DNA of 64,000 bases from Streptomyces sp. P3 (GTDB taxonomy: Bacteria > Actinomycetota > Actinomycetes > Streptomycetales > Streptomycetaceae): the NCBI RefSeq assembly GCF_003032475.1, contig NZ_CP028369.1:6572001-6636000 (forward strand), read 5' to 3'. The position numbers and the translations under genes were made by a program. Shown here piece after piece: positions 31,291 to 56,758 of this stretch. Within the stretch, counting starts at the first letter, position 1; each line of letters starts with the position of its first letter. Under the pieces are notes generated by a model. It saw only the letters and a program-made list of their open reading frames with translations. It was not told the origin of the DNA and made no database searches.

Positions 31291-31316
31291 CCACCCGCGC
31301 CTGAAGGAAGACGACC

Positions 31317-32099: not shown

Positions 32100-32126
32100 A
32101 CCGCTCCGAACACGAAGCAGGAACCC

Positions 32127-36463: not shown

Positions 36464-37384
36464 TCAGGCGGTGGCGGCGGTGACGGAGGTCGTGGCGGCG
36501 GCGGCCTCCCGCAGCCGGCGGATCACCCCGCGGACCGCGGGCGAGGTCTCCCCCCTGCGGTAGGCGCCGACCAGCCGGGTGGTGAGCGCCACGTCCGCCA
36601 GCGGACGGTACGCCACCCCCGGGATCTGCACGCGACGCAGTGAATCCGGCACCAGGGCCACCGCGAGACCACCGCCGACCAGTGTCAGGGCCGCGATGAA
36701 GTCCCGCACCGGGGGAGACCACCGCGGACTGAACCCCCCGCGCTGCGCCACTTCGAGGATCTGGTCACGGCAGCCGTACTCCTCGTCGAAGTGCGGGGCC
36801 ACGAAGTTCTCGTCACACAGCTTCGCCGCCGGTATCGCCTCGTACGCCGCGAGCGGCGCGGCGGCCGGCAGCGCCAGGACGACCCGCTCGGTGAGCAGGC
36901 AGGTGGCCGTGACCTCCGGCGGGTATTCCGGCCGCCAGCGCAGGAAGCCGACGTCGACGTCCCCGCACGCCAGCGCCTCCAGCTGGGCAGGGGTTTCCAA
37001 CTCGCGTACTTGCACGGTGAGTTCGGTGCCGGGGGCCGTGCAGCGGGTGAGGACGTCGGTCAGCACCCCGGAGAACGCGGCGGAGGCGACGTACGCGAAC
37101 TGGGCGTGTCCCAGCTCCCCGCGGCCGGCGCGACGGCCCACCGCCTCGGCACGTGCCACCTGGTCGAGCGTCAGCCGCGCCTCGTCGAGGAACAGCCGCC
37201 CGGCGCTGGTCAGGGCCGGGCGGGTGCGCCGTCCACGGTCGATCAGCCGTACGCCCAGGTGCGACTCGAGCGCTCTGACCTGTGCGCTGAGTGCCGACGG
37301 AGCCAGGTGCAGGCGATCGGCCGCCCGAGCGAAGTGCAACTCGTCCGCGACGACGACGAACGATTCCAGCCAGCGTAGTTCCAT
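36464..37384 (-). CDS. LysR-family transcriptional regulator
   Basis: A 306-residue LysR protein. The helix-turn-helix is in LHFARAADRLHLAPSALSAQVRALESHLGVRLI, followed by the linker helix and a two-lobed effector domain starting about residue 90 (GHAQFAYVASAAFSGVLTDVLTR). The ATG at 37384 (MELRWLESF) is preceded on this strand by GGAGG with correct spacing; the frame extends ten residues further. LysR proteins usually act on neighbouring genes, here the 3-hydroxyacyl-CoA dehydrogenase or the alcohol dehydrogenase. Its operator is not obvious. Confidence 0.9.
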   Translation of the reverse strand: MELRWLESFVVVADELHFARAADRLHLAPSALSAQVRALESHLGVRLIDRGRRTRPALTSAGRLFLDEARLTLDQVARAEAVGRRAGRGELGHAQFAYVASAAFSGVLTDVLTRCTAPGTELTVQVRELETPAQLEALACGDVDVGFLRWRPEYPPEVTATCLLTERVVLALPAAAPLAAYEAIPAAKLCDENFVAPHFDEEYGCRDQILEVAQRGGFSPRWSPPVRDFIAALTLVGGGLAVALVPDSLRRVQIPGVAYRPLADVALTTRLVGAYRRGETSPAVRGVIRRLREAAAATTSVTAATA

Positions 37385-37479
37385 CGGTTCCTCCATCCCG
37401 CCGGGAATGCACACCCCGCGGCGGCGTCAGGGCAGGACAGGACCGCCGCGGGGTGAGTTCGGTGGATTGCGGCTCGGGT

Positions 37480-38589
37480 TCAGGGGATCACGACGTAGTT
37501 GCTGAATCCGCCGTCGAGATCCGCGGCACGTCCGGAGATCGCCTCGTTGACCTCCGACAGCGGGAAGGGCTTGCTGATCAGGTAGGACAGGTCCAGGGCA
37601 CCGGTGGCCACCATGTCGGCGACCTCCTGGCCCTGCGCGGTGGTGAACCAGTTGGAGCCGATCAGCTGGACCTGCTCGTCCATCAGCCACTTCACGTCCA
37701 CGGGCAGCCGGTCCGCCACGCCGCCGACATTGACGACCCTGCCGCCGCGGCGGACGCCCTGCATGGAGTCGAGCATCGTCTCCACCGGGGCCTTCGCGCC
37801 GAGTGCGCTGATGACGAAGTCCGCGCCCTCGCCGCCGGTCCGGGACTTCGCCCACGCGCCGGTGGAGCCCTCGCCCAGCCGCATGACCTCGATCCGGTCC
37901 GGGGCCAGCCCCTTGACCCGCTCGAGGAGCTCCTCGTTGCGGCCGGTCCCGAGGACCCTGGAGACACCCGAGGCCAGCGCCAGGAGAGTGGAGGCGACGC
38001 CGAGGGTGCCGGTGATGCCGTCGATCAGCGCGACCTGGCCGGGACCGGCCGCGGCGTGTCTCAGGGCGCCGTAGGAGGTGCCGATGTAGCCCAGCTTGCC
38101 GGCCTGCTCGAACGTCATCGAGTCCGGAATGTTGACGATCGCGTGCTGTGGCGCCGTCATGTACTCGCAGAAGCCGCCGTAGGGATAGAGGTCGAAGATC
38201 CGCTGGCCGTCGCGGGAGGTGCTGAAGTAGCCGTTCAGCGTGAAGTAGCGGCAGCGGCTGAGTTCACCTCCGCGGCACACCTGGCAGCTGCCGCAGGACC
38301 GCAGCGGGCTGACGTAGACCCGGTCACCGGGCCTGGTGTTCAGCACCGCCTCGCCGACCGCCTCGACCACGCCGGCGGGGTCCAGGCCGAAGATCGCGGG
38401 CAGTTCGGGCAGGGGCTGGTGCGGATACCAGGTGGGCCAGTTGTTGATCACGTTGGCCATGTTCGGCACGATTCCGCACGCCTTGACGCGCACCAGCACG
38501 TCGGTCGGCCGCGGGGTGGGCACGTCGACCGTGTCCACGGACATCGGCTCACCGAGTGCGTGCAGTCGTGCCGCGAGCATCTTCGCCAT
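37480..38589 (-). CDS. Zinc-dependent medium-chain alcohol dehydrogenase
   Basis: A 369-residue MDR protein. The structural-zinc loop is RSCGSCQVCRGGELSRC, the nucleotide fold is around GITGTLGVASTLLALASG, and the catalytic-zinc region lies in VKACGIVPNMANVINNW, which is altered relative to the common CGTD-H pattern. NAD(P)-dependent alcohol or aldehyde oxidoreduction is expected. The second ATG, at 38589 (MAKMLAARL), has the right spacing from AAGGAG, better than the first at 38595. It is the last gene of the minus-strand operon that begins with the enolase paralogue. Confidence 0.88.
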   Translation of the reverse strand: MAKMLAARLHALGEPMSVDTVDVPTPRPTDVLVRVKACGIVPNMANVINNWPTWYPHQPLPELPAIFGLDPAGVVEAVGEAVLNTRPGDRVYVSPLRSCGSCQVCRGGELSRCRYFTLNGYFSTSRDGQRIFDLYPYGGFCEYMTAPQHAIVNIPDSMTFEQAGKLGYIGTSYGALRHAAAGPGQVALIDGITGTLGVASTLLALASGVSRVLGTGRNEELLERVKGLAPDRIEVMRLGEGSTGAWAKSRTGGEGADFVISALGAKAPVETMLDSMQGVRRGGRVVNVGGVADRLPVDVKWLMDEQVQLIGSNWFTTAQGQEVADMVATGALDLSYLISKPFPLSEVNEAISGRAADLDGGFSNYVVIP

Positions 38590-38718
38590 TGACATACTCC
38601 TTGGAACTGTTCCGTCCCGACGGTCGAGGGCCGGAGGTCTTCTCTTCGCGACCGAGGCGGTGGAACTGCGGCGCGGAATTCACATGCGATGTGGTGCTGG
38701 GCCGTTCGGCGCCGGGTG

Positions 38719-39270
38719 CTACGAATTCCCGAACGGATTCGCGTAGCCGTCCTCGAGATCGATGTCCAGCAGACCCATGATGCGGACGCCGGAGTTGTAC
38801 CAGGCGATGGACAGGGACAGTTCGACCATCTGCCGGACCGACAGGTGTTCTGCGGCGGCGCGCCATGTCTCCTCGGAGACGTCGACGTGGAGCGTGGACT
38901 CCCTGGCGAGCCGCATCACCGCCTTCTCCGTCTCGTCGAACAGGGCGGACGACTCGAAGTCGGCGACGGCCGCGAGCTGTTCGCCGGTGAGGCCCGCCGC
39001 GAGTCCGTGCGACTGGTGGTGTGCGACCTCGTAGGAGGACCGGGTCGCATGGCCGACGGTCAGGATGGCCAGCTCACGCAGTTTCGGGCTGAGGTCGGCG
39101 GCCCGCAGCGAGTTGGCGTAGGTCAGGAAGGCGTCCAGCTGTGCCGGCGCGTGGGTGAGGGCGAGGAAGATGTTCGCCGTCGGTACCTTGCGTTCGGCCT
39201 CCAGCCGGTCGTACAGCGGCTTCAGCGAGGCGTCCGCGTCCTCGCGGCGAACATAGGGAACTCGTGCCAT
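38719..39270 (-). CDS. Carboxymuconolactone-decarboxylase-family protein
   Basis: A 183-residue AhpD/CMD-like helical protein. The family core is LRELAILTVGHATRSSYEVAHHQSHGLAAGLTGEQLAAVADFE, with Glu and His of YEVAHH at the conserved positions but without the CxxC pair of peroxidase-type AhpD. It could be a decarboxylase, lactonase-like or protective enzyme for ring-cleavage products. It lies 34 bp downstream of the dioxygenase gene in the same operon. Substrate unknown. Confidence 0.85.
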   Translation of the reverse strand: MARVPYVRREDADASLKPLYDRLEAERKVPTANIFLALTHAPAQLDAFLTYANSLRAADLSPKLRELAILTVGHATRSSYEVAHHQSHGLAAGLTGEQLAAVADFESSALFDETEKAVMRLARESTLHVDVSEETWRAAAEHLSVRQMVELSLSIAWYNSGVRIMGLLDIDLEDGYANPFGNS

Positions 39271-39304
39271 GGCGTCTCCTTGAGGGACGGTCGTGGAAAA
39301 AGGA

Positions 39305-40309
39305 TCAGGGGAGGGGCTGTTCGAGCAGGAACCGCTCCAGCGACATCGGATTCGGCGGTTCGGCCGGCTCGGTCCGGGGTGCGCCGACGAACGGCGACGC
39401 CTCGAAGTACCACTTCTCCAGGGCCGGCAGACCCCAGCGGGCGTTGGTGCTCAGGGAGGCCGCGTCCCAGCGCACGGGTTCGATCTCGGTGTCGATGGTC
39501 TGGTAGTGGCTGTTGAAGACCTCCACCCGGTGACCGTCGGGGTCGCGGAGGTAGGCGAAGAGCATCCCGCCCGGACCGTGTCGTCCGGGGCCGCGCTCCA
39601 CACCGTCGCCGTAGCCGAGGATGCCCGCCCAGTCGCAGGCGCTGAAGATGTCGTGGCTCTCGGAGACGGTGTAGGCGAAGTGGTGCAGCGCGGGCCCGGT
39701 GTTCTCGACGATCGCGAGGTCGAGACAGGTGCCCTTGCGGTACATGAACGCACCCAGCAGCTTGTCGCCGTGCTCCAGGTACTCCGAGTTGCGGAAGCCG
39801 AGTTCGCTGTAGAAGGCGCACAGCTCGTAGGTGTCGGGCGCGAAGATCTGGTAGTGGTCCAGCCGCTGCGCGTGAGCACCCCTGTACTGCTCGAAGTCGA
39901 TGTGCAGCCGGGGCCGGGTCTCCATGTGCGCGCACAGTTCGAGGGGCGTGCCGATGGGGTCGGCGACGTGCAGGGTACGCCCCTGATGGGGGACGTCGAC
40001 CCACTCGGCGGGCAGCCCACGCTCACGGAACCAGGCGTACGCCAGGTCGAGGTCCTCGTCGAAGAACACCCGGAAGCCGATCCTCCTGCAACTGCCCGCG
40101 CCTTCCTCGTCGAGCTCCAGGACGAGGCTGTGGTGGCAGGCTTCCGCCAGCCCGCGCAGGTAGCAGGTGCGGTCGTCCTCGTCGCTGACGACGAGCCCCA
40201 GCGCTTTCGTGTAGAAGTCCCGGCTCGCGGCCAGGTCGGCCACGGTGAGCCGGACGTGGCTGGAGCGGGTGATGTTGAAACGCGGGCGCAGGTTGACGGG
40301 TGGCAGCAT
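39305..40309 (-). CDS. Extradiol-type dioxygenase (VOC superfamily)
   Basis: A 334-residue two-domain VOC protein of the type I extradiol dioxygenase class. The predicted metal ligands are H152 (LDHYQIF), H209 or H210 (ALHHFAYT) and E263 (HRVEVFN), matching the His-His-Glu triad of homoprotocatechuate 2,3-dioxygenase. The reaction would be meta-cleavage of a catechol-type ring using Fe(II) or Mn(II). It is 66 bp downstream of the enolase paralogue and 34 bp upstream of the CMD-family gene. A fumarylacetoacetate-hydrolase-family gene under the same operator could process the product. Confidence 0.87.
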   Translation of the reverse strand: MLPPVNLRPRFNITRSSHVRLTVADLAASRDFYTKALGLVVSDEDDRTCYLRGLAEACHHSLVLELDEEGAGSCRRIGFRVFFDEDLDLAYAWFRERGLPAEWVDVPHQGRTLHVADPIGTPLELCAHMETRPRLHIDFEQYRGAHAQRLDHYQIFAPDTYELCAFYSELGFRNSEYLEHGDKLLGAFMYRKGTCLDLAIVENTGPALHHFAYTVSESHDIFSACDWAGILGYGDGVERGPGRHGPGGMLFAYLRDPDGHRVEVFNSHYQTIDTEIEPVRWDAASLSTNARWGLPALEKWYFEASPFVGAPRTEPAEPPNPMSLERFLLEQPLP

Positions 40310-40375
40310 GCTGGTCTCCGTGCTCCGATCGGCTCTTGCTCTCGATTTCGATGACTGTAATTCTTCGAAGCGTTT

Positions 40376-41686
40376 TCACGGCTTGGCCGTGAGAGCCCCG
40401 GTCCGGGCGAAAGTGAATGCGGACCAGCCGCTGAATTCCGCGGAGTCGCCGAGGGACTCCTCGATGCGCAGGACCTCGTTCCACTTGGCCATGCGTTCGG
40501 AGCGCGTGAACGAGCCGACCTTCAGCTGGCCGGCGTCCCAGCCGACGCTCAGATGCGCGATGGTCACGTCCTCGCTCTCGCCGGAGCGGGCCGACACGAT
40601 GGTGCCGAAGCCGGCAGCCTTCCCGGCGCGCAGGGCTCGGTACGCCTCGGTGACCGTGCCCGCCTGGTTGGGTTTGACGAGGACGGCATTCGCCGCGCCG
40701 TCGATGGCCGCCGCCTCGACGCGTTCGGCGTTCGTGACCAGGTAGTCGTCGCCGATGACCTGGCAGCGGCTCCCGTAGCGGCGGGTGAACTCCCTCATGC
40801 CCTCGTGGTCGTCCTCGCCCACCGGGTCCTCGACGGACAGGACGGGGTACTGCTCGATCCAGCCGCCCAGCATGTCGATCAGTGCCGCCGTGTCCAGCGT
40901 GCGCTCGTCGAGCGCCAGCGTGTACCGGCCGGCGCCGCCGAACTGCGAGGCGGCGACGTCGAGCGAGATGCCGACCTCGGTCGAGGGGGTGAAGCCGGCG
41001 CTCTCGATCGCCCGGGTCAGCGTCTCCAGGGCCTCCTCGTTGGAGTCGAACGCCGGCCAGAAGCCGCCCTCGTCGGCCACCCCCTGGGCCTTCCCCGCCT
41101 TCCGCATCAGGCTCCCGGCGGCCCGGTAGATCTCCGCCGTCCAGTCCAGTGCGTCGGAGAAGCTGCCTGCCGCGGGACAGACGACCATGAAGTCCTGCAC
41201 GTCCACCCGACGGTCCGCGTGGGCGCCGCCGCCGAAGATCTGGATCTCGGGCAGCGGGATGCGCACCGGCCGCCCGCCGGCCAGGTGCTGCCACAGCGGT
41301 ACGCCCTGCGACGCGGCGGCGGCGTGCAGAACGGCCATGGAGGTGGCCACGATCGCGTTGCCGCCGAGACGGCTGCGGTCGGGGGTCCCGTCGAGGTCGA
41401 TCAGGAGCCGGTCGACGGTCTCCTGGTCGCTGCTGTCCAGGCCCAGGAGGGCAGGCGCGATCTCGCCGTTCACCGAGCCGACCGCGCGACGGACGTCCAG
41501 ACCGCCGAAGCGGTTCCCGCCGTCGCGCAGGTCGAGCGCTTCGCCCCGGCCGGTCGAGGCCCCGGCAGGTGCGATGGCCCGTCCGGTCGCGCCGTTCGCG
41601 AGGTGTGCCTCGACCTCCACGGTCGGCCGACCGCGTGAGTCCCACACCCTGCGGCCGTGGAGCTTGGCGATCCGCGCGTCTGTCAT
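40376..41686 (-). CDS. Enolase-superfamily paralogue with altered active site
   Basis: A 436-residue protein with the full enolase fold and length. Metal ligands D243, E286 and D313 are present, as are the catalytic-type lysines K338 (LVKPNQ) and K389 (GQLKVG) and E206 (ADEGG). Three positions differ from glycolytic enolase: the mobile-loop serine of SGASTG is A41 (PAGASTG), the acid of QEFM is D165 (QDFM), and the histidine of SHRSGE is A367 (SARSGE). It is clearly not the housekeeping enolase and lies first in a catabolic operon with a LacI-type operator at its promoter. A 2-phospho-acid-like dehydratase on another substrate is likely. Confidence 0.88.
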   Translation of the reverse strand: MTDARIAKLHGRRVWDSRGRPTVEVEAHLANGATGRAIAPAGASTGRGEALDLRDGGNRFGGLDVRRAVGSVNGEIAPALLGLDSSDQETVDRLLIDLDGTPDRSRLGGNAIVATSMAVLHAAAASQGVPLWQHLAGGRPVRIPLPEIQIFGGGAHADRRVDVQDFMVVCPAAGSFSDALDWTAEIYRAAGSLMRKAGKAQGVADEGGFWPAFDSNEEALETLTRAIESAGFTPSTEVGISLDVAASQFGGAGRYTLALDERTLDTAALIDMLGGWIEQYPVLSVEDPVGEDDHEGMREFTRRYGSRCQVIGDDYLVTNAERVEAAAIDGAANAVLVKPNQAGTVTEAYRALRAGKAAGFGTIVSARSGESEDVTIAHLSVGWDAGQLKVGSFTRSERMAKWNEVLRIEESLGDSAEFSGWSAFTFARTGALTAKP

Positions 41687-41843
41687 GGCGGTGCGACCTT
41701 TCGGAGTCGGGGTGGTGAGGGTGGTGAGCGGTCCGCGGGGGCTGTCGTCGGACGAGAGCCGTGTCCGTCGTGGCGCAGGACCGTGGCCGGCGGTGCCGGA
41801 CCGGGCGAAGGACGCTCAGGGCGGCAGCCCGCCGCGCTCACTG

Positions 41844-41888
41844 TGCTAACGATAGCGCAATCGTGCGAGGCGTTGTCGATTGTGTCAA
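41844..41888 (-). promoter_or_regulatory. Enolase-paralogue promoter with LacI-type operator
   Basis: Operator TGCTAACGATAGCG at 41844-41857. On the minus strand TTGACA (41888-41883), a 17-nt spacer and CACGAT (41865-41860) form a promoter whose start point falls on the operator. This is one of five related sites, consensus TGCTAACGTTAGCA. Confidence 0.72.
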
Positions 41889-41966
41889 GAGTCCGGCAGC
41901 AAGAGGATGTCGAGGGGTGCGTGCACTCCCGGCGGATCTCGGCGATCGCACCTTCGGCAACCGCAG

Positions 41967-41980
41967 TGCTATCGTTCGCA
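41967..41980 (+). promoter_or_regulatory. LacI-type operator upstream of the FMN reductase
   Basis: TGCTATCGTTCGCA at 41967-41980, 123 bp from the operator of the divergent enolase paralogue. The pair could support DNA looping. It lies 116 bp before the reductase start. Confidence 0.68.
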
Positions 41981-42095
41981 TAGCCGGGGTGTCCCGGCCG
42001 AAATCCCGGCGGACCCGCTGTTCCTGGACGGACGGACAGCACAGGCGCGCGGGTCCGCCGGACCGGATCACGGCACTCAGGAAAGCGAGCCCGAC

Positions 42096-42689
42096 ATGGC
42101 GTCCGAACCCCCCGCGACACCCATGACCCTCACCACCGTGGTGGCCAGCACGCGTCCCGGACGCGTGGGCAGGTCCGTCGCGGACTGGTTCACCGCCCGA
42201 GCCGCGGAGTGCGAGCACTTCGAGTCGCACACCGTCGACCTCCGGGAACTCGCCCTGCCCTTCTTCGACGAGCCGCATCCGCCCGCGCTGCGGCGGTACA
42301 CCAGGAGCCACACCCTCGCCTGGAGCCGGATCGTCGAGGCGTCGGACGCGTTCGTCTTCGTCACCCCGGAGTACAACGGGAGCTTCCCGGCCCCGCTGAA
42401 GAACGCCTGGGACTACCTGGTCGTGGAGTGGCAGCACAAGCCGGCCGCGTTCGTCGGCTACGGAGGAGTGTCGGCGGGCACCCGGGCGGTGCAGATGGGC
42501 AAGCAGGTCGTGGCGAATCTCAGAATGCTGCCGATCGGTCCGACGGTGAGCATTCCCTTCATCGGCGAACGCGTCGAGGACGGTGCTTTCCGGCCCGGCA
42601 AGATCCACGAGGCGGCGGCCGAGCAGGTGCTCGACGAACTGGCGCGTACGTCACGTGTCATGCGGCGCCTGCGCAACGGGACGTACTGA
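42096..42689 (+). CDS. NADPH-dependent FMN reductase family protein
   Basis: A 197-residue flavodoxin-fold protein: VVASTRPGRVGRSVADWF at the FMN-phosphate loop, FVFVTPEYNGSFPAPLKNAWDYL for the isoalloxazine site, and GYGGVSAGTRAVQM. It could reduce FMN or quinone-like ring intermediates with NADPH, or supply reduced flavin to an oxygenase. It is divergent from the enolase-paralogue operon and carries a LacI-type operator. The ATG at 42096 has a weak ribosome-binding site. A strong hairpin ends the gene. Confidence 0.87.
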   Translation: MASEPPATPMTLTTVVASTRPGRVGRSVADWFTARAAECEHFESHTVDLRELALPFFDEPHPPALRRYTRSHTLAWSRIVEASDAFVFVTPEYNGSFPAPLKNAWDYLVVEWQHKPAAFVGYGGVSAGTRAVQMGKQVVANLRMLPIGPTVSIPFIGERVEDGAFRPGKIHEAAAEQVLDELARTSRVMRRLRNGTY

Positions 42690-42779
42690 GCCGGACCCGA
42701 CCGGCATGACTCGCCGAAGAAGGTCCCGAACGAGGTTCCGCACGAGGTCCGGAACGAGGCAGCGCATGACGCCCGGCAG

Positions 42780-42818
42780 GCGAAGGCGCCCGGAGTGCAT
42801 CGCTCCGGGCGCCTTCGC
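42780..42818. terminator. 16-bp hairpin terminator between FMN reductase and LacI genes
   Basis: A perfect 16-bp stem, GCGAAGGCGCCCGGAG (42780-42795) and its complement (42803-42818), with a 7-nt loop, lies between convergent genes and should stop transcription both ways. Confidence 0.85.
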
Positions 42819-42850
42819 CGTGCCGCGTTGCGGGCCTTCGCCGGGTCGGG

Positions 42851-43900
42851 TCAGTCGCCCGCCGCCGCTCGGGCGACCCCGGACGGGCCGCTGCCGCCGG
42901 GGGGCGCCGTGCTGCCGCGCAGGATCAGGGATCCGGGCGAGACCGAGGTGTACGGGCCGTCGTTGCCCGCCCCCGTCTTGAGCCGGCGCATCAGCCACAG
43001 CGCGCAGCCGGTGGCCATCTCCTGGATCGGCATGCCGATGGTGGTGAGTCCGGGGCCCCACCAGGAGAAGCCGGGCTCGTCCCCGAACCCGACCACGGAC
43101 AGTTCGCCGGGCACCTTCGGTCCCCGCTCGGACAACTCCTCCAGGACCCCCAGGGTGAGCTGGATCGATCCGAGGACGAGCGCGGTGGGCGCGTCGGGTC
43201 CGCTCAGCAGCCGGCGCACCGCCCGGCGCCCGTGGTCCACGGAGGACGGCGGCCCCAGCTCCGTGCGCCGGGCGTCGTCCGGCAGCCCCCCGTCCCGCAG
43301 GGCGGTGCGGAAGCCGCGCAGACGGTCCGCGCCTGTCGGCAGCTCCTCGGGTCCGCCCAGGTAGGCGATGTCGGTGTGGCCCAACGCCACCAGGTGGGCC
43401 GTGGCCCGGCGCAGCGCCTCGTGGTCGTCCACGCCGAACCACTGGGAGCCGAGCGAGGGGTGGCGGCGCAACAGTTGCAGGTGCGGCAGGGTGCGCAGCA
43501 GCTTGACGGACTCGTTGTGCGGGCGGGCGGTGGGCACGATGATGACGCCGGCCACGCGGGTCGCGGACAGCTCCCGCAGATGGCGCAGCTCCACCATCCG
43601 GTCGTCGTCGGTCTCCGAGAGCATCAGCTGGTAGCCCTCGGCCTCCATGTTCTTGGACAGTTCGTGGGCGATGGTCGAGTAGAAGCTGTTGCGGATGTCC
43701 GGGATCACCAGCGCGACCACGTTGCTGGACGCGCCCCGCATCATCCGCGCCGCGCGGTTGCCGACGTACCCCATCTCCGAAGCGACCTGCCGTACCCGGA
43801 ACTTGGTCTCCTCGCTGATCCGCGCGTCGTCGGCGAGCGCCCGGCCGACGGTCGAGACGGAGACCCCGAGACGCTCGGCGATGTCCTTGGTCGTGACCAC
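42851..43900 (-). CDS. LacI-family repressor of the catabolic island
   Basis: A 349-residue LacI/GalR protein. The DNA-binding domain is TTKDIAERLGVSVSTVGRAL, then the hinge (GYVGNRAARMMRGASS) and a periplasmic-binding-protein-like effector domain starting VVALVIPDIRNSFYS. The GTG at 43900 follows a G-rich stretch; upstream in-frame starts have no support. A site of its own consensus lies at 43948-43961 before it, consistent with autoregulation. The effector is unknown but should be a substrate or intermediate of the pathway it controls. Confidence 0.92.
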   Translation of the reverse strand: MVTTKDIAERLGVSVSTVGRALADDARISEETKFRVRQVASEMGYVGNRAARMMRGASSNVVALVIPDIRNSFYSTIAHELSKNMEAEGYQLMLSETDDDRMVELRHLRELSATRVAGVIIVPTARPHNESVKLLRTLPHLQLLRRHPSLGSQWFGVDDHEALRRATAHLVALGHTDIAYLGGPEELPTGADRLRGFRTALRDGGLPDDARRTELGPPSSVDHGRRAVRRLLSGPDAPTALVLGSIQLTLGVLEELSERGPKVPGELSVVGFGDEPGFSWWGPGLTTIGMPIQEMATGCALWLMRRLKTGAGNDGPYTSVSPGSLILRGSTAPPGGSGPSGVARAAAGD

Positions 43901-43947
43901 GTAAAGGATCCCCCTCGACTCGCTGACCCGTGCTGTCACTTTCCGTG

Positions 43948-43961
43948 TGCCAACGATAGCG
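43948..43961 (-). promoter_or_regulatory. LacI-type operator upstream of the lacI-like gene
   Basis: TGCCAACGATAGCG at 43948-43961, 48 bp before the LacI start, one of five related sites. Confidence 0.65.
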
Positions 43962-44020
43962 CTCGTCGTCGCGCTCCGTGGTCGGACGGGGTGACGTCTC
44001 CTTGTTGATCATTCCGATCG

Positions 44021-44034
44021 TGCTAACGTTAGCA
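44021..44034 (+). promoter_or_regulatory. Perfect LacI-type operator upstream of the FAH-family gene
   Basis: TGCTAACGTTAGCA, a perfect 14-bp palindrome at 44021-44034, 73 bp from the LacI-gene site. It has the best match among the five copies and defines the consensus. Confidence 0.75.
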
Positions 44035-44086
44035 TTGTTGGTCGGATCGTGCAGCCGCCTGTGGCTGCCCAGTTGCGGAGGTGTCC

Positions 44087-44866
44087 GTGCGGATCGTCAG
44101 ATACGCCGTCGACGGCGTGCGTCACTACGGGGAACTCGAAGCGGGCGACATGGGGATCGCGCGATGCGAAGGTGATCCCTATACCGGGCTGGCGCCCACG
44201 GGGCACGTCGACAACGTCGGTGATGTCACGGTTCTTTCGCCGCTCGACCGGCCCCGTATCTTCGGATTCGCCTACAACTACGCCGCGCACGTCGACGAGA
44301 CCGACCACGAGATCCCGGACGTTCCCGTGTGTTTCATGAAGCCGAGCACCGCGGTCGTCGGTCCGGGAGATGCCATCGTCTATCCGGCGGATGGCGAACT
44401 GATTCATTTCGAGGGCGAGTTGGTTGTCGTCATCGGAAAGGAAGCCCGGCATGTGAAGCCTTCCGAGGCTCATGAATACATCCTCGGTTACACGTGCGGA
44501 AATGACGTCAGCGATCGCATCGTCCAGCGCAGGGAAAGCGCGTACGGGACGCTTCTCATCGGGAAGGGCCAGGACACGTTCGCACCCCTGGGGCCCGTCA
44601 TCGCCACCGGGCTCGACCCCGCGAGGCTCTCCCTGACGACCCGGGTGAACGGCGCCGTCGTGCAGTCGGCGAGCACGGCCGACCTGCTGCTCACCGTCCC
44701 CGACCTCGTCGGCTATCTCAGCCGCCATCTGACGTTGCTCCCCGGGGACGCGATCATGACCGGCACGCCGTCCGGTGTGGGGCCGATCCGCCCCGGGGAC
44801 GAGGTCGAGGTCGAGATCGAGGGAATCGGGGTCCTGCGCAACCCGGTCGTGGCCGGGACCCGCTGA
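44087..44866 (+). CDS. Fumarylacetoacetate-hydrolase-family enzyme
   Basis: A 259-residue FAH-fold protein. The metal ligands are expected in HFEGELVVVIG (two acidic positions) and CGNDVSDR, with substrate contacts in FGFAYNYAAH and the C-terminal TGTPSGVGPI. The family includes HpaG-type isomerases/decarboxylases and acylpyruvases that act on ring-cleavage products. It fits a step after the extradiol dioxygenase of the same regulon. The GTG at 44087 (VRIVRYAVDG) has GGAGG five bases upstream, better than the GTG at 44081. Confidence 0.88.
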   Translation: MRIVRYAVDGVRHYGELEAGDMGIARCEGDPYTGLAPTGHVDNVGDVTVLSPLDRPRIFGFAYNYAAHVDETDHEIPDVPVCFMKPSTAVVGPGDAIVYPADGELIHFEGELVVVIGKEARHVKPSEAHEYILGYTCGNDVSDRIVQRRESAYGTLLIGKGQDTFAPLGPVIATGLDPARLSLTTRVNGAVVQSASTADLLLTVPDLVGYLSRHLTLLPGDAIMTGTPSGVGPIRPGDEVEVEIEGIGVLRNPVVAGTR

Positions 44867-44887
44867 CCCCGGTCGTTCGCGGGGAGC

Positions 44888-44950
44888 CCGCCCGCACGCG
44901 CCGGGGGCCGGCACCGTCAGACGGTGCCGGCCCCCGGCGCGTGCGGGCGG
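44888..44950. terminator. Very long perfect hairpin between FAH and MFS genes
   Basis: A perfect inverted repeat of about 30 bp per arm (left arm begins CCGCCCGCACGCGCCGGGGG at 44888; right arm ends at 44950) around a 3-5-nt loop at 44917-44921. It separates convergent genes and should end both transcripts. Confidence 0.85.
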
Positions 44951-44960
44951 TGCGCGGTGC

Positions 44961-46229
44961 CTAGCGGACCGCGTTGTTGAACTGCGCGGGGCGGACGAAG
45001 GCCAGGGCGGCGACACCCACCAGGGGCAGCAGTGTCACCTGCAGCAACCCCGCTCCGCTCCAGCCGAAGGAGTCCACCAGGGCGGCGAAGAGCAGGCCCG
45101 AGAAGGCCGCCGTCCCGTAGTAGCTGGTGACGAAGAGACCGGAGGCGCGGCCGATCTGCTCAGGACGGACGGCCCGCTGCATCGCGCTGTTGCTGTTGGG
45201 ATAGATGAAACCCAGACCGAAGGCGCCCATGAGGAAGGCGAACAGGCACTGCAGCCCGACCCCGGCATGCGTCTCGTAGATGCACGCGGCGATGGCCGAG
45301 ACGGCGAGCAGGCTTGCGATCAGCAGGTTCCGCTGGTTGATCCGGTCGCCGAGCCAGCCGCCGAGAACAGCCGTCATCCCGCCGAATCCGAGCAGGCTCA
45401 TCGCCAGCGCCGCCTGCTCGGAGGTGTAGTGCAGCGAGGTGATGAGGTACGTCGGGTAGAGGCCGAGGAAGCCGTAGATGGCCACGCCGCTGACCACCGA
45501 GTGGATCGCCAGCGCGACGGTGTTCCGGTTGTAGGCGGAGGCCGGCATGTACTCGTAGGTCCTGCTCGAGGCGGCTTTCTCGACGCGGTGTTCGGTCAGG
45601 CCGGCCCTGACGAGGAAGAGGGAGGCGGCGGCGATCAGCAGACCGGCCGCGCCGAACAGGTAGAACGGCGCATGCCAGGTGCCGTGCGTGCTCATGAGCC
45701 GCACCCCGATGAGCGGGGCGATGAACACGCCGACGGAGTAACCCACCCCGATGATCCCGAAGGCCAGGCCCCGCCGGTGGGTGAAGAAGGCGCCGATCGC
45801 GGCGAAGATCGCCGCGGACTGCATGCCCTCGCCGAAGCCCGAGACGACGCGGTACACCGTCATGTCGGCGAGGCCGGTCGCCAGCGGAGTGGCCATCGTG
45901 CCCAGGGAGTAGATCACGATGCTGACCAGGAGCACCGTCTTGCGCCGGAAGCGGTCCAGGAGGTAGCCCGCGGGCAGGCCGGCCAGGGCCATGCCGAGCG
46001 TGAAGTTCGTCGCCAGCAGCCCGCCCTGTTCCAGCGAGAAGCCGTACTCCTGACGAATGTCGGGCAGCAGCGGCGGGAAGACCTGGCGGTCCATGGCGTT
46101 GATCATGTAGGAGAGGACGACCAGCAGGAAGCCCACTGCGATCATGGCCCGGGAAATGGGCGCGCGGTTGTCTTCCCGGGCGCCGTCGGCGGACACGGCA
46201 GGGGTGTCGACTTGGGCTGCGTGAGTCAT
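44961..46229 (-). CDS. MFS transporter (aromatic-acid/organic-acid type)
   Basis: A 422-residue major facilitator with twelve predicted membrane segments. The first helix region reads AVGFLLVVLSYMINAMDRQVFPPLLPDI, with the acidic residue of MDRQ typical of anion:H+ symporters, and the conserved loop-2/3 motif GYLLDRFRRK follows. It resembles MhpT/PcaK-like and ACS-family uptake systems. Located between the FAH-family and hydroxyacid-dehydrogenase genes, it probably imports the substrate of the island. No operator of the local consensus lies immediately before it, but the divergent promoter region is shared. Confidence 0.88.
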   Translation of the reverse strand: MTHAAQVDTPAVSADGAREDNRAPISRAMIAVGFLLVVLSYMINAMDRQVFPPLLPDIRQEYGFSLEQGGLLATNFTLGMALAGLPAGYLLDRFRRKTVLLVSIVIYSLGTMATPLATGLADMTVYRVVSGFGEGMQSAAIFAAIGAFFTHRRGLAFGIIGVGYSVGVFIAPLIGVRLMSTHGTWHAPFYLFGAAGLLIAAASLFLVRAGLTEHRVEKAASSRTYEYMPASAYNRNTVALAIHSVVSGVAIYGFLGLYPTYLITSLHYTSEQAALAMSLLGFGGMTAVLGGWLGDRINQRNLLIASLLAVSAIAACIYETHAGVGLQCLFAFLMGAFGLGFIYPNSNSAMQRAVRPEQIGRASGLFVTSYYGTAAFSGLLFAALVDSFGWSGAGLLQVTLLPLVGVAALAFVRPAQFNNAVR

Positions 46230-46611
46230 TGCGGCTCCAGAGGAGGGATGGGTCGCGGCAGGCCGCGGCCGATTCATCGCGGGTACGGTCCCGTACGGCG
46301 ACGACGAGAGACGGTGAGCCGAACACCGATACGTTCGGCCGGAGGCGTCGACGCGCCGCAGGCGGCGGAAAGCGGCGACAGGGCTGACGCGCGGTCGGAC
46401 GCCGCATGTGGAATTCAGCCGTTGATCGCCTGTCGGGGGACGTCCGTGGCTATGGAGTCTTCGACGGCTCGGCCCTGTTCGGACATGTGCCGGAAACAGG
46501 GCGGCGATGGCAGAAACCATGCGGGCAAGTCCGTGGTGCGTCAAGACGTGAACGCCGCTTTTCTCTGATTGCGCTCGTATTTCCGGTGACGACGGGGTTC
46601 GCCGGGGGGTC

Positions 46612-46723
46612 GGAAGGAGTTCGGACGGGGGTTCGCAGGGGGCCGGAAGGAGTTCGGGCAGCGTCCGTCCGCAGGGGGCGGAAGGGGTTTCGGCAGCGTC
46701 CGCAGCGGGCGGAAGGAGTTCCG
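46612..46723. repeat. Four-unit ~33-bp repeat with GGAAGGAGTTCGG core
   Basis: The core occurs at 46612-46624, 46645-46657, 46680-46693 (variant GGAAGGGGTTTCGG) and 46711-46723, spaced 33, 35 and 31 bp. It lies in the 858-bp divergent region between the MFS and hydroxyacid-dehydrogenase genes (46230-47087), which holds no supported gene. Confidence 0.6.
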
Positions 46724-46775
46724 TGGCGGCTCCGGACGAGCTGCCGCGGCAGGCGGTCGGTCCGCACCCGCACTC

Positions 46776-46811
46776 TTGACGCCTCGAAGGCCGTCAGTGC
46801 TATCGTTAGCA
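46776..46811 (+). promoter_or_regulatory. Promoter and LacI-type operator of the hydroxyacid-dehydrogenase operon
   Basis: TTGACG at 46776-46781 and the operator TGCTATCGTTAGCA at 46798-46811, which overlaps the expected -10 position (TGCTAT after a 16-nt spacer). The dehydrogenase start is 277 bp downstream, implying a long leader or a second promoter. Confidence 0.68.
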
Positions 46812-47087
46812 TCGCGTGGCTGTGACAGAGTGATCCGACATGCCCCTTCAGACGTGTGACCCGTTCCGGGGGCGTACCGCGAGGCCTTCGCCGACCACAA
46901 GCCGGCGGGAGCCGGCGTTCGACCCGAGCCCAGCGACCCTCTCCACCTCGCCCGCGGCGACCGTCGGCGTCATCGGACGATGCCGGCGTTCGCCCTCCGG
47001 GCGACGATCAACCCGCTGACCGAAAGCGACCGGGCGCCACGCCCGGCCATCCGCATCGGCCGCACGATTCCGCGAGGACGACCTGCC

Positions 47088-48092
47088 ATGAAACCACCGA
47101 GCCGCCCCGGCACCGTGCTGCTCACCGACTACGCCTGGCCCGACGACGCCGTCGAGCGATCGGTTCTCGAAAAGGCCGGCCACACCCTCGTGACCGGACC
47201 CGCCGAACCCGCCTCCGCCGAAGTGATCGACGACCTGGTCGCCGAACACCGGCCCGCCGGCATCCTCACCTGCTGGGCGCCCGTCTCCGCCACCGCCGTC
47301 CAGACGTCGCCGGACCTGAGGATCGTCGCCAGACTCGGCGTCGGTCTCGACAACATCGCCGTGGACAGAGCCACCGAACGCGGCGTGTGGGTCACCAATG
47401 TGCCTGACTACTGCGTCGAGGAGGTCTCCGACCACGCGGTGGGCATGGTGCTGGCCTGGACCCGCGGCCTGGCCGTGTTCGACCGCGACGTCCGGGCCGG
47501 CCACTGGAACCCCGCGAGCGCCAAGCTGCGCCGACTGTCCACGCTGACCTGCGGCGTCGTCGGATACGGGCGCATTGGGCGCGCCACCGCCCGCAAACTC
47601 GGCGCGTTCGGCTGCCGTATCCTCGCGCACGACCCGTACCCGCCGAAAGACGCACCCGGAGTGGAACTGGTGGGCCTGGACGAGCTGCTGCGCCGCAGTG
47701 ACGCGGTGATCCTCCACGTACCGCTCACCCCCGGCACCCGCCACATCATCGGCACCGAACAGCTGGCCCTGATGAAGCCGGGCGGCCTGCTGGTCAACGT
47801 CAGCCGGGGAGGTCTCGTCGACACCGACGCGGTCGTCAGGGCACTGGACGCCGGACAGCTGGACGGGGCCGCCCTCGACGTGTTGGAGAGCGAACCCCAC
47901 GTCCCGGCCGGACTGCTCCGCCAGCCCGGAGCACTGATCACCCCGCACGTCGCGTTCTCCTCGGACGCCTCGGTCGCGGAACTGCGCCGCCGCGCCGCGG
48001 AGGACGTCGTACGCGTTCTGGCGGGCGAGGCACCCGCCCACGCCTGCAACAGTCCCCGCGGCCTGACGACCGAGCCGGCGGGACGGCGATGA
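47088..48092 (+). CDS. D-2-hydroxyacid dehydrogenase (SerA/phosphoglycerate-dehydrogenase type)
   Basis: A 334-residue NAD-dependent dehydrogenase. It has VARLGVGLDNIAVDRATE, the Rossmann motif GVVGYGRIGRATARKLG, the catalytic arginine in NVSRGGLVDTDA, the glutamate in LDVLESEPHVP and the histidine in LITPHVAFSSD. It interconverts 2-oxo and D-2-hydroxy acids; the group includes 3-phosphoglycerate dehydrogenases. ATG at 47088 after GAGGA. The stop overlaps the kinase start (ATGA at 48089-48092), and the operon has a LacI-type operator. Confidence 0.9.
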   Translation: MKPPSRPGTVLLTDYAWPDDAVERSVLEKAGHTLVTGPAEPASAEVIDDLVAEHRPAGILTCWAPVSATAVQTSPDLRIVARLGVGLDNIAVDRATERGVWVTNVPDYCVEEVSDHAVGMVLAWTRGLAVFDRDVRAGHWNPASAKLRRLSTLTCGVVGYGRIGRATARKLGAFGCRILAHDPYPPKDAPGVELVGLDELLRRSDAVILHVPLTPGTRHIIGTEQLALMKPGGLLVNVSRGGLVDTDAVVRALDAGQLDGAALDVLESEPHVPAGLLRQPGALITPHVAFSSDASVAELRRRAAEDVVRVLAGEAPAHACNSPRGLTTEPAGRR

Positions 48093-49114
48093 GCGCCACC
48101 GGCTCCGCGTATCCGGCTCCGGACTCCGCGCTGACCGACTTCCTGATCGCGCACCGGCTCGCCCGCCCCGGTGAGACCGCCCGCTGGACACCGCTGGCCG
48201 GGGGCGTCTCCTCCGACCTGTGGATGGTGGACCTCCCGGGACGCTCCCTCTGCGTCAAACGCGCGCTGGCCAGGCTCAAGGTCGCGGCCGACTGGCAGGC
48301 GCCCATCTCGCGCAACGCCTACGAATGGGCGTGGATGCGGTTCGCCTCCCGGCACCGGCCCGACAGCGTGCCCGGACTGCTGGCCCACGATGCCGAAGCC
48401 GGCCTCTTCGCGATGGCGTACCTGCCGCCCGAGCACTACCCGGTGTGGAAGGCGCGACTCCTGGCCGGAGAGGTGCGGCCGCAGACCGCGGCGGCCGTCG
48501 GGGAACTGCTCGGCACCCTGCACGCGAGGAGCGCGGGCGACGCCGGCCTTGCCGCGGAATTCGCCACCGACGACAACTTCCACGCGCTGCGGATCGAGCC
48601 GTACCTGCTGGCGACCGCCGCCGAGCACCCCGATCTGAGCGATGTCCTCGAGCGGCTCGCCGACCGCACGGCCACCACCCATCTGGCCCTGGTCCACGGC
48701 GACGTCAGCCCCAAGAACATCCTCGTCGGCCCGTCGGGACCCGTGCTGCTGGACGCCGAGTGCGCCTGGTACGGAGACCCTGCCTTCGACCTCGCCTTCT
48801 GCGTCAACCACCTGCTGCTCAAGAGCCTGGTCGTACAAGGGCGGCGCGCCGAACTGCTGCGGTCCGCCCGCGTGCTGGCCGAGGCGTACGCACGGTGCGT
48901 CGACTGGGAGGACCCGGCCGGCCTCGCGTCCCGAGCAGCCTCGCTGCTGCCGGCCCTGCTGCTCGCGCGCGTGGACGGCAAGTCCCCGGTGGAGTACCTC
49001 ACCGACGACCGGCACCGGGACTTCGTCCGCACCGTGGCCTCGGTGCTGCTGCGGGCGCCCGCGCACACGGTGGCCGAGATCCTGGACGCCTGGGCCACGG
49101 CACTGCAGACCTAG
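48089..49114 (+). CDS. Aminoglycoside-phosphotransferase-fold small-molecule kinase
   Basis: A 341-residue kinase. The catalytic loop is LVHGDVSPKNILVG and the metal-binding loop LLDAECAWYGDPAFDLAF, as in APH/choline/methylthioribose kinases; an ATP-lysine lies in SLCVKRALARLK. It is translationally coupled to the hydroxyacid dehydrogenase and followed by a cupin, so it most likely phosphorylates a pathway intermediate or substrate rather than an antibiotic (inference). A phosphorylated intermediate would also give the enolase paralogue a natural substrate. Confidence 0.87.
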   Translation: MSATGSAYPAPDSALTDFLIAHRLARPGETARWTPLAGGVSSDLWMVDLPGRSLCVKRALARLKVAADWQAPISRNAYEWAWMRFASRHRPDSVPGLLAHDAEAGLFAMAYLPPEHYPVWKARLLAGEVRPQTAAAVGELLGTLHARSAGDAGLAAEFATDDNFHALRIEPYLLATAAEHPDLSDVLERLADRTATTHLALVHGDVSPKNILVGPSGPVLLDAECAWYGDPAFDLAFCVNHLLLKSLVVQGRRAELLRSARVLAEAYARCVDWEDPAGLASRAASLLPALLLARVDGKSPVEYLTDDRHRDFVRTVASVLLRAPAHTVAEILDAWATALQT

Positions 49115-49260
49115 CCCGCACTGCCCGGCAACCGGTCCGCCCACCCCCTGGGCAGCCGGTCCGTCCGACCGCTCAGCACCCGACCCGACTGACCCCTCGG
49201 CAGTCGGCCGGACCGGCCCGCCGGATTCGACGTGCCACGGGTCCGACCAAGGAGAGAGAC

Positions 49261-49791
49261 ATGCGCAGAGTCGTCACCGGCCACGACGCGAACGGCAGGT
49301 CGGTCGTCATCAGCGACGGACCGATCCCGCGCAGCCGCGAGTTCACCAGCCTTCCGGGCTGGGTGTCCCGCCTGCCCTGGGCCACCGAACCCGGCGAACC
49401 GGTCAGCCGCGGGGGCGAGGACCCCACGCCGAGGATCACCAGCCTGCTCCCGGCGCCCGGCGGCACCCGGTTCATCGTGCTGACCTTCCCGCCGGACAGC
49501 GCCATGGCCGATCCGTCGTTCGATCCCGTCGCCTTCGATCAGGAGCAGCGCGCCGACTCGCCGGGCATCGCGGACCTCATGGAGCCCGACGGCATGCACA
49601 CGACGCCGACCGTCGACTACGGCCTCGTGCTGCAGGGCGAGATCGTCCTGGAACTGGACGACGGCCGGTGCACCCGGCTGTCGGCCGGTGACGTCGTGAT
49701 CCAGAACGGCACCAGGCACGCGTGGCGCAACCGCAGCGGCGAACCGGTCACCATGGCCTTCGTCCTCGTCGGCGCGCACCGCGACGACTGA
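49261..49791 (+). CDS. Cupin-domain protein
   Basis: A 176-residue single-cupin protein. The conserved double-stranded beta-helix motifs are in DYGLVLQGEIVLELDDGRCTRLSAGDVVIQNGTRHAWRNRSGEPV, with a histidine in GTRHAW and a Tyr/Asp-type first motif, so the metal site may be incomplete. Related proteins are isomerases, dioxygenases or sensors. ATG at 49261 after AAGGAG. It closes the operon of hydroxyacid dehydrogenase and kinase. The 145-bp gap before it holds short GC-rich repeats. Confidence 0.82.
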   Translation: MRRVVTGHDANGRSVVISDGPIPRSREFTSLPGWVSRLPWATEPGEPVSRGGEDPTPRITSLLPAPGGTRFIVLTFPPDSAMADPSFDPVAFDQEQRADSPGIADLMEPDGMHTTPTVDYGLVLQGEIVLELDDGRCTRLSAGDVVIQNGTRHAWRNRSGEPVTMAFVLVGAHRDD

Positions 49792-50992: not shown

Positions 50993-51988
50993 CTACGTCG
51001 TTTCGCGCTGGACGACGGCGAGGATGTCGTCCGCGCCGGGCGCACTCGGCGCTGCCGGGGCCGGAGCGCCGGCCAGTGAGAGGATGCTTGTGGTGAGGTT
51101 GCCGGCCGCCACGGTGAGGTCCATCCGGATGGTGGTCAGGGCCGGGACGGCAAGTGAGCTGACCGGGAGGTCGTCGACGCCGATGAGGGCCAGGTCGTCC
51201 GGGACGTCGATGTGCTGCGTGCGGCAGCTCGCCAGGACGGCGAGGGCGATCAGGTCGTTGAAGGCGGCGACCGCTGTGACCGGGTTGGCGCCCTGGGTCC
51301 ACTGCGTGACGGCCTCCCGGGCACTGGCCCGCGAATAGCGCATGCTGATGACCTGCGGCAACGGCAGACCCAGGTCGACGCAGGCCCGGGTAGCCCCTTC
51401 CAGGCGGGGCGGGCAGAAGGGGCGCTCCCGGGGATCGTCCAGCGCGGCGTAACCGATGTGCCGGTGCCCGCGTGACGCGAGGTGCTCGATCTGCATGCGT
51501 CCGACCTTTTCCTGGCTCAGCCCGGTCAGGCCGGCACGGCCCGGCGTGAATACATCCTCCAGCAAAGGGATTTCAGCCCGAAGCAGTGACTGCGCATCGG
51601 TGGCCGGCAGACCACCGAACGCGACGACCACCGCCGGCTGGACGTGTTGCCAGAGCTCGGCCAGGGGCGTGGTCGTCCCGTCGTGGTGCAGGTACACACA
51701 GGTGTAGCCCGCCTCGCCCAGCGATCGGCCGAGGGCCAGCTTGAACTGCTCCATAGCCTCGGCGACGGGGAGATCCGGCACCACGCAGAGCACGACGTTG
51801 CTGCGGCCCTTGCGCAGTGCACGGCCGGCTCCCGACGGTACGTAACCGAGACGCTCCGCCGTCTCCAGCACGCGGCGACGGGTCTCCGCAGAGAGACCGT
51901 GCTCGTCCCTCCCGTTGAGCACGAAGCTCACGGTGGTCTGTGAGACCCCGGCCTCTCGCGCCACGTCCTTGCTGGTGACCCTCGGCAA
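50993..51988 (-). CDS. LacI-family transcriptional regulator (second)
   Basis: A 331-residue LacI/GalR protein: TSKDVAREAGVSQTTVSFVLNG for the helix-turn-helix, RALRKGRSNVVLCVVPD at the hinge, and an effector domain ending in DDLPVSSLAVPALTTI. It starts with TTG at 51988 after GGGAGGGG. It is divergent from the MFS-hydrolase operon and probably represses it through the perfect palindrome at 52049-52062. Confidence 0.9.
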   Translation of the reverse strand: MPRVTSKDVAREAGVSQTTVSFVLNGRDEHGLSAETRRRVLETAERLGYVPSGAGRALRKGRSNVVLCVVPDLPVAEAMEQFKLALGRSLGEAGYTCVYLHHDGTTTPLAELWQHVQPAVVVAFGGLPATDAQSLLRAEIPLLEDVFTPGRAGLTGLSQEKVGRMQIEHLASRGHRHIGYAALDDPRERPFCPPRLEGATRACVDLGLPLPQVISMRYSRASAREAVTQWTQGANPVTAVAAFNDLIALAVLASCRTQHIDVPDDLALIGVDDLPVSSLAVPALTTIRMDLTVAAGNLTTSILSLAGAPAPAAPSAPGADDILAVVQRETT

Positions 51989-53490: not shown

Positions 53491-53505
53491 CCGACGGAGG
53501 CTTCC

Positions 53506-54360: not shown

Positions 54361-54361
54361 C

Positions 54362-55435: not shown

Positions 55436-55486
55436 CCGATGTGAGAAGGCGAGGCGCACGCAGAGCAGTACCGCTGACTGACCGGT

Positions 55487-55555
55487 GAGCCCAGGCCCGT
55501 GCACGACCTGATCCCGGATGCGACGCCGACAACACCACACGAGGAAGTGCGTGAC
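55487..55555 (+). pseudogene. Scar of a duplicated, mostly deleted alpha/beta hydrolase
   Basis: 55488-55530 matches 54198-54240 of the upstream hydrolase gene (30 of 34 bases over the clearest part, e.g. CTGATCCCGGAT). 55528-55558 matches its very end, 54334-54364 (28 of 31, including GACAACACC and GCGTGACATG). The intervening coding part is missing. A tandem hydrolase copy apparently lost nearly all of its length just before the serine-hydrolase gene. Confidence 0.7.
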
Positions 55556-56701: not shown

Positions 56702-56758
56702 ACCGACCCCGGCACCTCAGGTCCCGACCCCGCCCATGAAAGAACCGGAAAGCAGGCC

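Follow-up and report, generated by a model that had tools for sequence, protein, structure and literature searches.

What does a small LacI-type regulon in Streptomyces sp. P3 serve to break down, and can its operators tell which genes belong to the pathway? The question is raised by a 64,000-nucleotide stretch of contig NZ_CP028369.1 (positions 6,572,001 to 6,636,000; the whole stretch is called the window here, and positions are counted from its first base), in which a LacI/GalR-family gene lies among catabolic genes preceded by copies of a 14-bp motif. A preliminary description of the window had proposed that five such sites bind one pathway together. The predicted regulon passes every sequence test run, and a LacI-type regulon marking out one pathway is well supported. 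We consider it reasonably likely that one LacI/GalR-type repressor acts through five operators on a route that leads from ring cleavage by way of an FAH-family enzyme, a dehydrogenase, a kinase, and an altered enolase to phosphoenolpyruvate (PEP). The changed active site of that enolase, which had escaped the preliminary description, is the most unusual element of the cluster.

All five described sites are found in the sequence, a perfect palindrome among them; as operators they are given without a strand.

41844 to 41857, no strand: operator TGCTAACGATAGCG, before the enolase operon; two mismatches to the palindrome; identity 0.994 over 11 orthologues
41967 to 41980, no strand: operator TGCTATCGTTCGCA, before the FMN reductase gene; two mismatches; identical in 11 of 11 aligned orthologues
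43948 to 43961, no strand: operator TGCCAACGATAGCG, before the LacI gene; three mismatches; identity 0.952 over 12 orthologues
44021 to 44034, no strand: operator TGCTAACGTTAGCA, the perfect palindrome, upstream of the FAH gene; unchanged in all 12 aligned orthologues
46798 to 46811, no strand: operator TGCTATCGTTAGCA, before the dehydrogenase-kinase-cupin operon; one mismatch; identical in 13 of 13 aligned orthologues

These are the only matches in the window at up to three mismatches; shuffled sequence gave a mean of 0.40, and none of 100 shuffles reached five. Across the complete 9.85 Mb genome the same threshold is uninformative, since a reversed control pattern (64 places) exceeds the motif itself (21 places). 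At up to two mismatches the motif occurs at four places (0, 1, 2, and 2 mismatches), all inside the cluster, and the genome-wide scan that had been proposed as a check meets no random genes. The site at 43948 rests on conservation, because with three mismatches a count alone would not carry it. The distance from site centre to start codon is 165 bp for the enolase, 123 bp for the FMN reductase, 55 bp for LacI, 60 bp for the FAH gene, 284 bp for the hydroxyacid dehydrogenase, and 576 bp for the MFS gene. A promoter scan of 41650-47120 found no sigma-70-type promoter, and therefore no overlap of an operator with a -10 box is claimed.

Conservation within the genus was assessed on three intergenic regions, aligned with 11, 12, and 13 of 13 Streptomyces loci. 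At the orthologous promoters the sites are kept at 95-100% identity to the window (individual values above, 1.0 where identical), whereas the remainder of the regions reaches 54-70% (0.535, 0.698, and 0.606), which bears out the comparison that the preliminary description had suggested. Ranked among all 14-base segments of their regions, the sites take places 2 and 1 of 396, 9 and 1 of 173, and 1 of 374. Two loci (L041 and L050) were each left out of one aligned region, where a gene was not recognised, and both hold changed site copies; in L041, omitted from the region of the palindrome, the 44021 site carries one change. Some of the loci collected are identical in sequence (L051 and L137, L113 and L139, L046 and L136), and a single genome (G291) contributes both L137 and L138, as separate contigs.

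Among 295 Streptomyces genomes, 21 contain the site at up to one mismatch (9 for the reversed control, counted from the table) and 17 a kinase orthologue (E up to 1e-60). Both are present in 16 genomes, the site only in five, the kinase only in one, and neither in 273; because these genomes are related, the one-sided Fisher p of 3e-21 is descriptive rather than a test. In the one genome with the kinase alone (G294) the cluster is decayed: within the 19 kb examined, the dehydrogenase and zinc dehydrogenase are matched only in part, and no enolase, LacI orthologue, FAH gene, or site at up to three mismatches was found. The two partial genes abut each other there (L136), with no site left. Another genome (G253) carries two oppositely oriented copies of the cluster, one toward each end of a contig of 11.5 Mb (with sites at 129620 and 11411200), as expected of terminal inverted repeats. 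A perfect W-version site also occurs away from the cluster in one locus (L140, 8778), about 80 bp before a LysR gene whose product is 71% identical to the LysR protein of the window (36464-37414).

Could another regulator own these sites? LacI-type operators have a common core, and a second LacI-type gene (50993-51988) lies about 4 kb from the last site, so that the operators might be shared with, or bound by, its product or a similar protein. We give this explanation almost no credence: in other genera the sites go together with orthologues of the first LacI gene, and the decayed cluster that lacks this gene has no site. Assignment of the operators to the second gene was rejected on these grounds. 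Beyond it (52204-61070) follow an MFS gene and a row of hydrolase genes, comprising an alpha/beta hydrolase, an esterase, a beta-lactamase-fold protein, an X-Pro peptidase-like protein, and a BD-FAE-type protein; no copy of the 14-bp motif was found in 50993-51988 or 52204-61070.

The first LacI gene is as follows.

42851 to 43900, minus strand: LacI/GalR-family repressor (PF00356, PF13377), with the recognition helix SxSTVGRAL common to its orthologues

Both the LacI helix-turn-helix and the periplasmic-binding-protein-like ligand domain score above their cut-offs. Loci of other genera were fetched with the kinase as query; the 80 loci obtained are the best 80 of 573 confirmed stretches and not an even sample, and 11 annotated plasmid regions were added; three plasmid regions carried no annotation. 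Relatives of the repressor with 54-80% identity, found in Rhodococcus, Parafrankia, Arthrobacter, Variovorax, Ramlibacter, Burkholderia, Duganella, and Rhizobium, keep the helix pattern SxSTVGRAL and the hinge AARMMRG, and a Sphingobium relative (47%) keeps SxSTVGRAL. Sites at up to one mismatch are present in all 14 grouped other-genus loci with a LacI orthologue (46 sites); with L113, from the window's own genus (G014), the group comprises 15 loci and 49 sites, and three shuffles gave 0. All nine loci with the dioxygenase gene and no LacI gene in the stretch have sites as well (22 sites), and none of the 25 kinase-enolase loci with neither a LacI nor a dioxygenase gene has one. The other-genus sites precede LacI, dioxygenase, cupin, FAH, dehydrogenase, and MFS genes and, in Rhodococcus, a two-component monooxygenase related to HsaA; some precede other genes.

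As in a LacI/GalR regulon, palindromic sites stand before both regulator and targets and are kept in orthologues, and the recognition helix and predicted operator are conserved jointly across phyla. A chance motif was rejected on the genome-wide counts, the conservation in Streptomyces, and the pairing of sites with LacI genes in other genera. The proposal that this regulon equals one pathway stands on sequence grounds: the motif is conserved at orthologous promoters, is confined to the cluster at up to two mismatches, and follows the presence of the genes within the genus and of the LacI orthologue elsewhere. Known LacI/GalR local repressors of carbon catabolism resemble it in their family domains, a palindromic operator with a central CG, self-regulation, and clustered targets. 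They differ in what is controlled, here an aromatic-type ring-cleavage set joined to a kinase-enolase module, and no member of that kind was found in the open-access literature searched. The preliminary description likewise knew of no LacI pathway with this gene content; the search agrees with it and is no proof of absence.

What the genes encode is the next question. The preliminary description had called them scattered, but they form one contiguous block on both strands (37480-49791), made up of a minus-strand operon for the enolase paralogue, dioxygenase, carboxymuconolactone-decarboxylase (CMD)-family protein, and zinc dehydrogenase; single genes for the FMN reductase, LacI, FAH, and MFS proteins; and a plus-strand operon for the hydroxyacid dehydrogenase, kinase, and cupin.

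37480 to 38595, minus strand: zinc-dependent dehydrogenase (PF08240, PF00107)
38719 to 39270, minus strand: CMD-family protein (PF02627)
39305 to 40309, minus strand: VOC extradiol-type dioxygenase of its own subfamily; nearest solved relative homoprotocatechuate 2,3-dioxygenase
40376 to 41686, minus strand: enolase paralogue with Glu168 changed to Asp and His373 to Ala (yeast numbering); TIGR01060 481 bits, cut-off 300
42096 to 42689, plus strand: protein of the NAD(P)H-dependent FMN reductase family (PF03358)
44087 to 44866, plus strand: FAH-family hydrolase or decarboxylase (PF01557, 221 bits)
44961 to 46229, minus strand: MFS transporter of the aromatic-acid symporter type by profile matches; putative regulon member by analogy with other genera
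47088 to 48092, plus strand: D-2-hydroxyacid dehydrogenase (PF02826); best solved relative phosphoglycerate dehydrogenase, 179 bits
48089 to 49114, plus strand: APH-family small-molecule kinase (PF01636); no family cut-off reached, and weak solved relatives only
49261 to 49791, plus strand: cupin (PF07883)

The MFS gene probably belongs to the regulon despite the distance to its nearest site, by analogy with its homologues in Arthrobacter, Parafrankia, and Rhodococcus, which have sites 163-346 bp away.

HpaD and HpaG of the homoprotocatechuate (4-hydroxyphenylacetate) meta-cleavage pathway are the closest relatives of the dioxygenase and the FAH protein, and the cluster might be a variant of that pathway, but both proteins miss the family cut-offs (288.6 against 321.4 bits for HpaD and 194.9 against 276.4 bits for HpaG). 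Dioxygenase residues were compared in 31 sequences (30 loci and the window), with numbering counted on an alignment with the solved relative. The 2-His-1-Glu metal site (H155, H214, E267) is kept in all 31, as are Y257, R243, and H248. In all 31, H200 is replaced by Leu, N157 by Gln, W192 by Phe, and R292 by Thr, and R293 gives way to Asn (27) or Ser (4). H200 acts in acid-base catalysis in the model dioxygenase, and R292 and R293 are substrate-side residues. Because these five equivalents are changed, homoprotocatechuate is an unlikely substrate. The cluster departs from the Hpa pathway also in its added dehydrogenase, kinase, and enolase; the last two would be useless to that pathway, and a Pfam scan of the cluster genes found no aldehyde dehydrogenase. 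The homoprotocatechuate pathway was rejected for its missed cut-offs and changed residues, and a variant of it is very improbable.

The enolase paralogue passes the phosphopyruvate hydratase model and is tied to the kinase well beyond Streptomyces: 78 of the 91 kinase loci hold a kinase-linked enolase open reading frame (ORF), 50 of them with midpoints within 2.5 kb. Of the 80 kinase-linked ORFs, 78 have Asp at the equivalent of Glu168 (two gaps), 77 have Ala and two have Gly at the equivalent of His373 (one gap), and 76 keep Ser39 (four gaps). The base Lys345, the acid Glu211, the metal ligands, and the phosphate-binding Arg374 and Ser375 are kept in the window protein and, with single exceptions, in nearly all 80, and Lys396 (Lys392 in Escherichia coli) and the enolate-forming residues are kept in the paralogue. 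As a control served 26 ordinary actinobacterial enolases, those that passed a motif filter out of the 30 best-scoring matches fetched from one phylum; all 26 have Glu and His. The 68 kinase-linked ORFs kept for the tree by a length filter have Asp and Ala in 67 and Asp and Gly in the remaining one, and in a tree with the ordinary enolases they form a single clade (support 0.995).

Excerpts of a study of E. coli enolase with SF2312 describe a hydroxyl, analogous to the C3 hydroxyl of 2-phosphoglycerate (2-PG), that bonds to Glu167, Lys392, and His369 (PMC6863902), and excerpts of a Chloroflexus enolase study name Glu165, Glu206, Lys338, Arg367, and Ser368 as contacts of 2-PG (PMC4450660). The matching of these residues to yeast numbering is our own. 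Judged against the contacts named there, two of the three that hold the leaving hydroxyl, Glu168 and His373, are replaced by smaller residues in the paralogue, and because of this its leaving group is probably other than plain water. The paralogue thus resembles enolase in fold, metal ligands, and base and acid residues, and differs from it in two leaving-group contacts, a separate clade, and a kinase-linked gene. A plain housekeeping duplicate was rejected on the changed residues and the separate kinase-linked clade.

A weaker form of that idea was retained. Plain hydroxypyruvate would be reduced to D-glycerate, the kinase would represent a new fold class of glycerate 2-kinases, and the paralogue would be an ordinary enolase isoenzyme that converts 2-PG to PEP. 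This proposal keeps the same gene order and end product and agrees with the retention of the other catalytic residues checked and with the score against TIGR01060. The genome, however, also carries an ordinary enolase, so a dedicated isoenzyme would not be needed, and the whole kinase-linked clade has lost Glu168 and His373; we regard the proposal as doubtful. Since an ordinary enolase is present, a dedicated variant makes most sense if the product of the kinase is not plain 2-PG. The kinase itself falls into no described glycerate kinase family: its Pfam matches are APH-type only, no NCBIfam cut-off is reached, and no APH-type glycerate kinase is described in the open-access literature searched. 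It has the APH fold in common with methylthioribose kinase and other small-molecule kinases, but scores 58 bits against the methylthioribose kinase cut-off of 275 and has different partner genes.

The settings of the pair in other organisms raise a further alternative, in which a larger acid (at least C4, or the other C2 stereoisomer) is phosphorylated by the kinase and dehydrated by the paralogue to an enol phosphate other than PEP. A widened pocket could hold a C3 substituent too, and in Paracoccus and Roseibium the kinase-enolase pair and an FAH gene adjoin in sugar-type settings with FAH and SDR genes. Non-phosphorylating sugar-acid pathways of the 2,4-didehydro-3-deoxy-L-rhamnonate type likewise end in an FAH-type diketo-acid hydrolase; the described pathways of this type yield pyruvate and lactate or glycolate and lack a kinase-enolase pair. 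This alternative is unlikely in view of the PEP carboxylase genes that accompany the module in three genera and that in Rhizobium follow an operator. Besides the window, 94 loci were searched for such genes near the module; nine have one, of which six are from Rhizobium, two from Rhodococcus, and one from Pseudomonas. In Rhizobium loci L063, L064, L065, and L119 an operator stands 24-27 bp upstream of the PEP carboxylase start inferred by homology; measured from the annotated start of L119, the distance is 48 bp. L070 is arranged in the same way, and L060 has no site at up to one mismatch before the gene. A Rhodococcus site precedes the PEP carboxylase gene by about 500 bp. These genes near the module, and their operators in Rhizobium, point to PEP as its product.

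Other neighbourhoods of the pair are varied. In three loci (L055, L066, and L087) the neighbours are housekeeping-like or uninformative. Two haloarchaeal plasmids (L125 and L127) have consecutive kinase, enolase, and cupin genes, with mandelate-racemase-type genes and a ketol-acid reductoisomerase-like gene alongside, and an Enterobacter plasmid (L126, 7193-16648) combines a distant relative of the kinase with an enolase-like ORF that has Asp and Gly at the two positions, in a biosynthetic-looking gene row.

Where would the remaining carbon go? Upstream of the block lie genes without a site, the first three of which, with the electron-transfer flavoprotein genes among them, belong to a glutarate operon (28765-33092) tied to the cluster by synteny.

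28765 to 30027, plus strand: class III CoA-transferase (PF02515), linked, no site
30115 to 31290, plus strand: second glutaryl-CoA dehydrogenase copy, 640 bits to a solved glutaryl-CoA dehydrogenase, linked, no site
32127 to 33092, plus strand: electron-transfer flavoprotein alpha subunit (PF00766, PF01012), linked, no site
35341 to 36207, minus strand: 3-hydroxybutyryl-CoA dehydrogenase (NF005875 417.5 bits, cut-off 319), linked, no site

Eleven of the 16 genomes that contain site and kinase together were tested for this linkage. In all ten other genomes, and so in 11 of 11 with this one, a glutaryl-CoA dehydrogenase copy of 92-97% identity lies about 9-15 kb from the perfect site, and an additional copy of 65-68% identity is found elsewhere in the tested genomes. 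Close to the module, more distant relatives are also found in loci of the Burkholderia type and of Rhizobium, Parafrankia, Rhodococcus, and Sphingobium (with the window, 16 sources). From this we infer that glutarate is one product of the pathway.

Taken together, the cluster seems to break down an aromatic plant compound. A LacI/GalR-type repressor would bind five 14-bp operators (TGCTAWCGWTAGCA-like) and control itself and a catabolic cluster of about 12 kb, with an aromatic acid or its product as the presumed inducer. The dioxygenase would open the ring, and the zinc dehydrogenase, CMD-family protein, and cupin would work on the ring-opened product. The FAH-family enzyme would then split this product into a C5 acid (glutarate, bound for glutaryl-CoA dehydrogenase) and a 3-substituted pyruvate. 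The latter may be reduced by the D-2-hydroxyacid dehydrogenase to a glycerate-type acid and phosphorylated at its 2-hydroxyl by the APH-family kinase, after which the enolase paralogue would eliminate the 3-substituent to give PEP.

Several observations weigh against this scheme. The equivalent of H200 is lost in all 31 dioxygenases, so that ring cleavage itself is presumptive. Since kinase-enolase pairs are found in sugar-type and haloarchaeal settings as well, a single aromatic account does not fit all of them. The glutarate operon has no operator, neither the window nor the examined Streptomyces loci contain a PEP carboxylase gene (most loci of the wider set have none either), and the ring-hydroxylase candidate of the genome lies about 0.9 Mb from the cluster and has no site. 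That candidate region (L171, 7688-9378, at about 7.536 Mb) encodes relatives, at 70-71%, of the operator-preceded Rhodococcus monooxygenase and flavin reductase; its 18 kb hold no motif copy at up to three mismatches.

Which substituent might the paralogue expel? The boldest reading, tentative and short of an even chance, is methanol. The kinase-enolase pair would then be an O-demethylation route, in which 3-methoxypyruvate is reduced to 3-O-methylglycerate, this is phosphorylated at the 2-position, and the altered enolase expels methanol to give PEP. The 3-methoxypyruvate could come from a methoxylated catechol-type acid or, in other bacteria, from a methoxy sugar acid. Among the hints, both changed leaving-group contacts have shrunk, PEP carboxylase stands behind the operator in Rhizobium, and two Pseudomonas loci and one Streptomyces genome have genes for VanA-type Rieske O-demethylases close to the module. 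In the Pseudomonas loci these are joined by two FAH genes and by genes for an FAD hydroxylase and a VOC protein, and a motif scan found no operator copy in these loci; the Streptomyces genome has a second module beside a P450, a reductase, and an aromatic-ring hydroxylase. On paper, the carbon count would fit a phenylpropanoid ring with an oxygen substituent beside the cleaved diol, which would yield a C3 fragment, glutarate, and one lost carbon. By similar paper chemistry, the methoxyl carbon of 4-O-methylglucuronate could likewise become part of the C3 fragment, a possible reason for the sugar-type settings. Against a methoxyl substrate speak the pairs in haloarchaea and Acidobacteria, which have no methoxyl hint among the neighbours seen, and the location of the nearest relative in this genome of the Rhodococcus ring hydroxylase (72%), far from the cluster and with no site. 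The proposed methoxy intermediates are not mentioned in the open-access literature searched.

The new element, as read from the sequences, is the kinase-enolase module with its remodelled leaving-group site. An enolase subfamily that carries the same two contact changes wherever it stands beside this kinase hints at an undescribed route from a C3 fragment to PEP. Its members bear on annotation as well, as the paralogue passes the phosphopyruvate hydratase model and its relatives are annotated accordingly, perhaps wrongly. With the common operator the gene set can be delimited in unrelated bacteria, and a search for the inducer has a simple reporter at hand. If methanol is indeed what leaves, the module would represent a new way in which soil bacteria remove methoxyl groups from lignin-type or methylated-sugar carbon.

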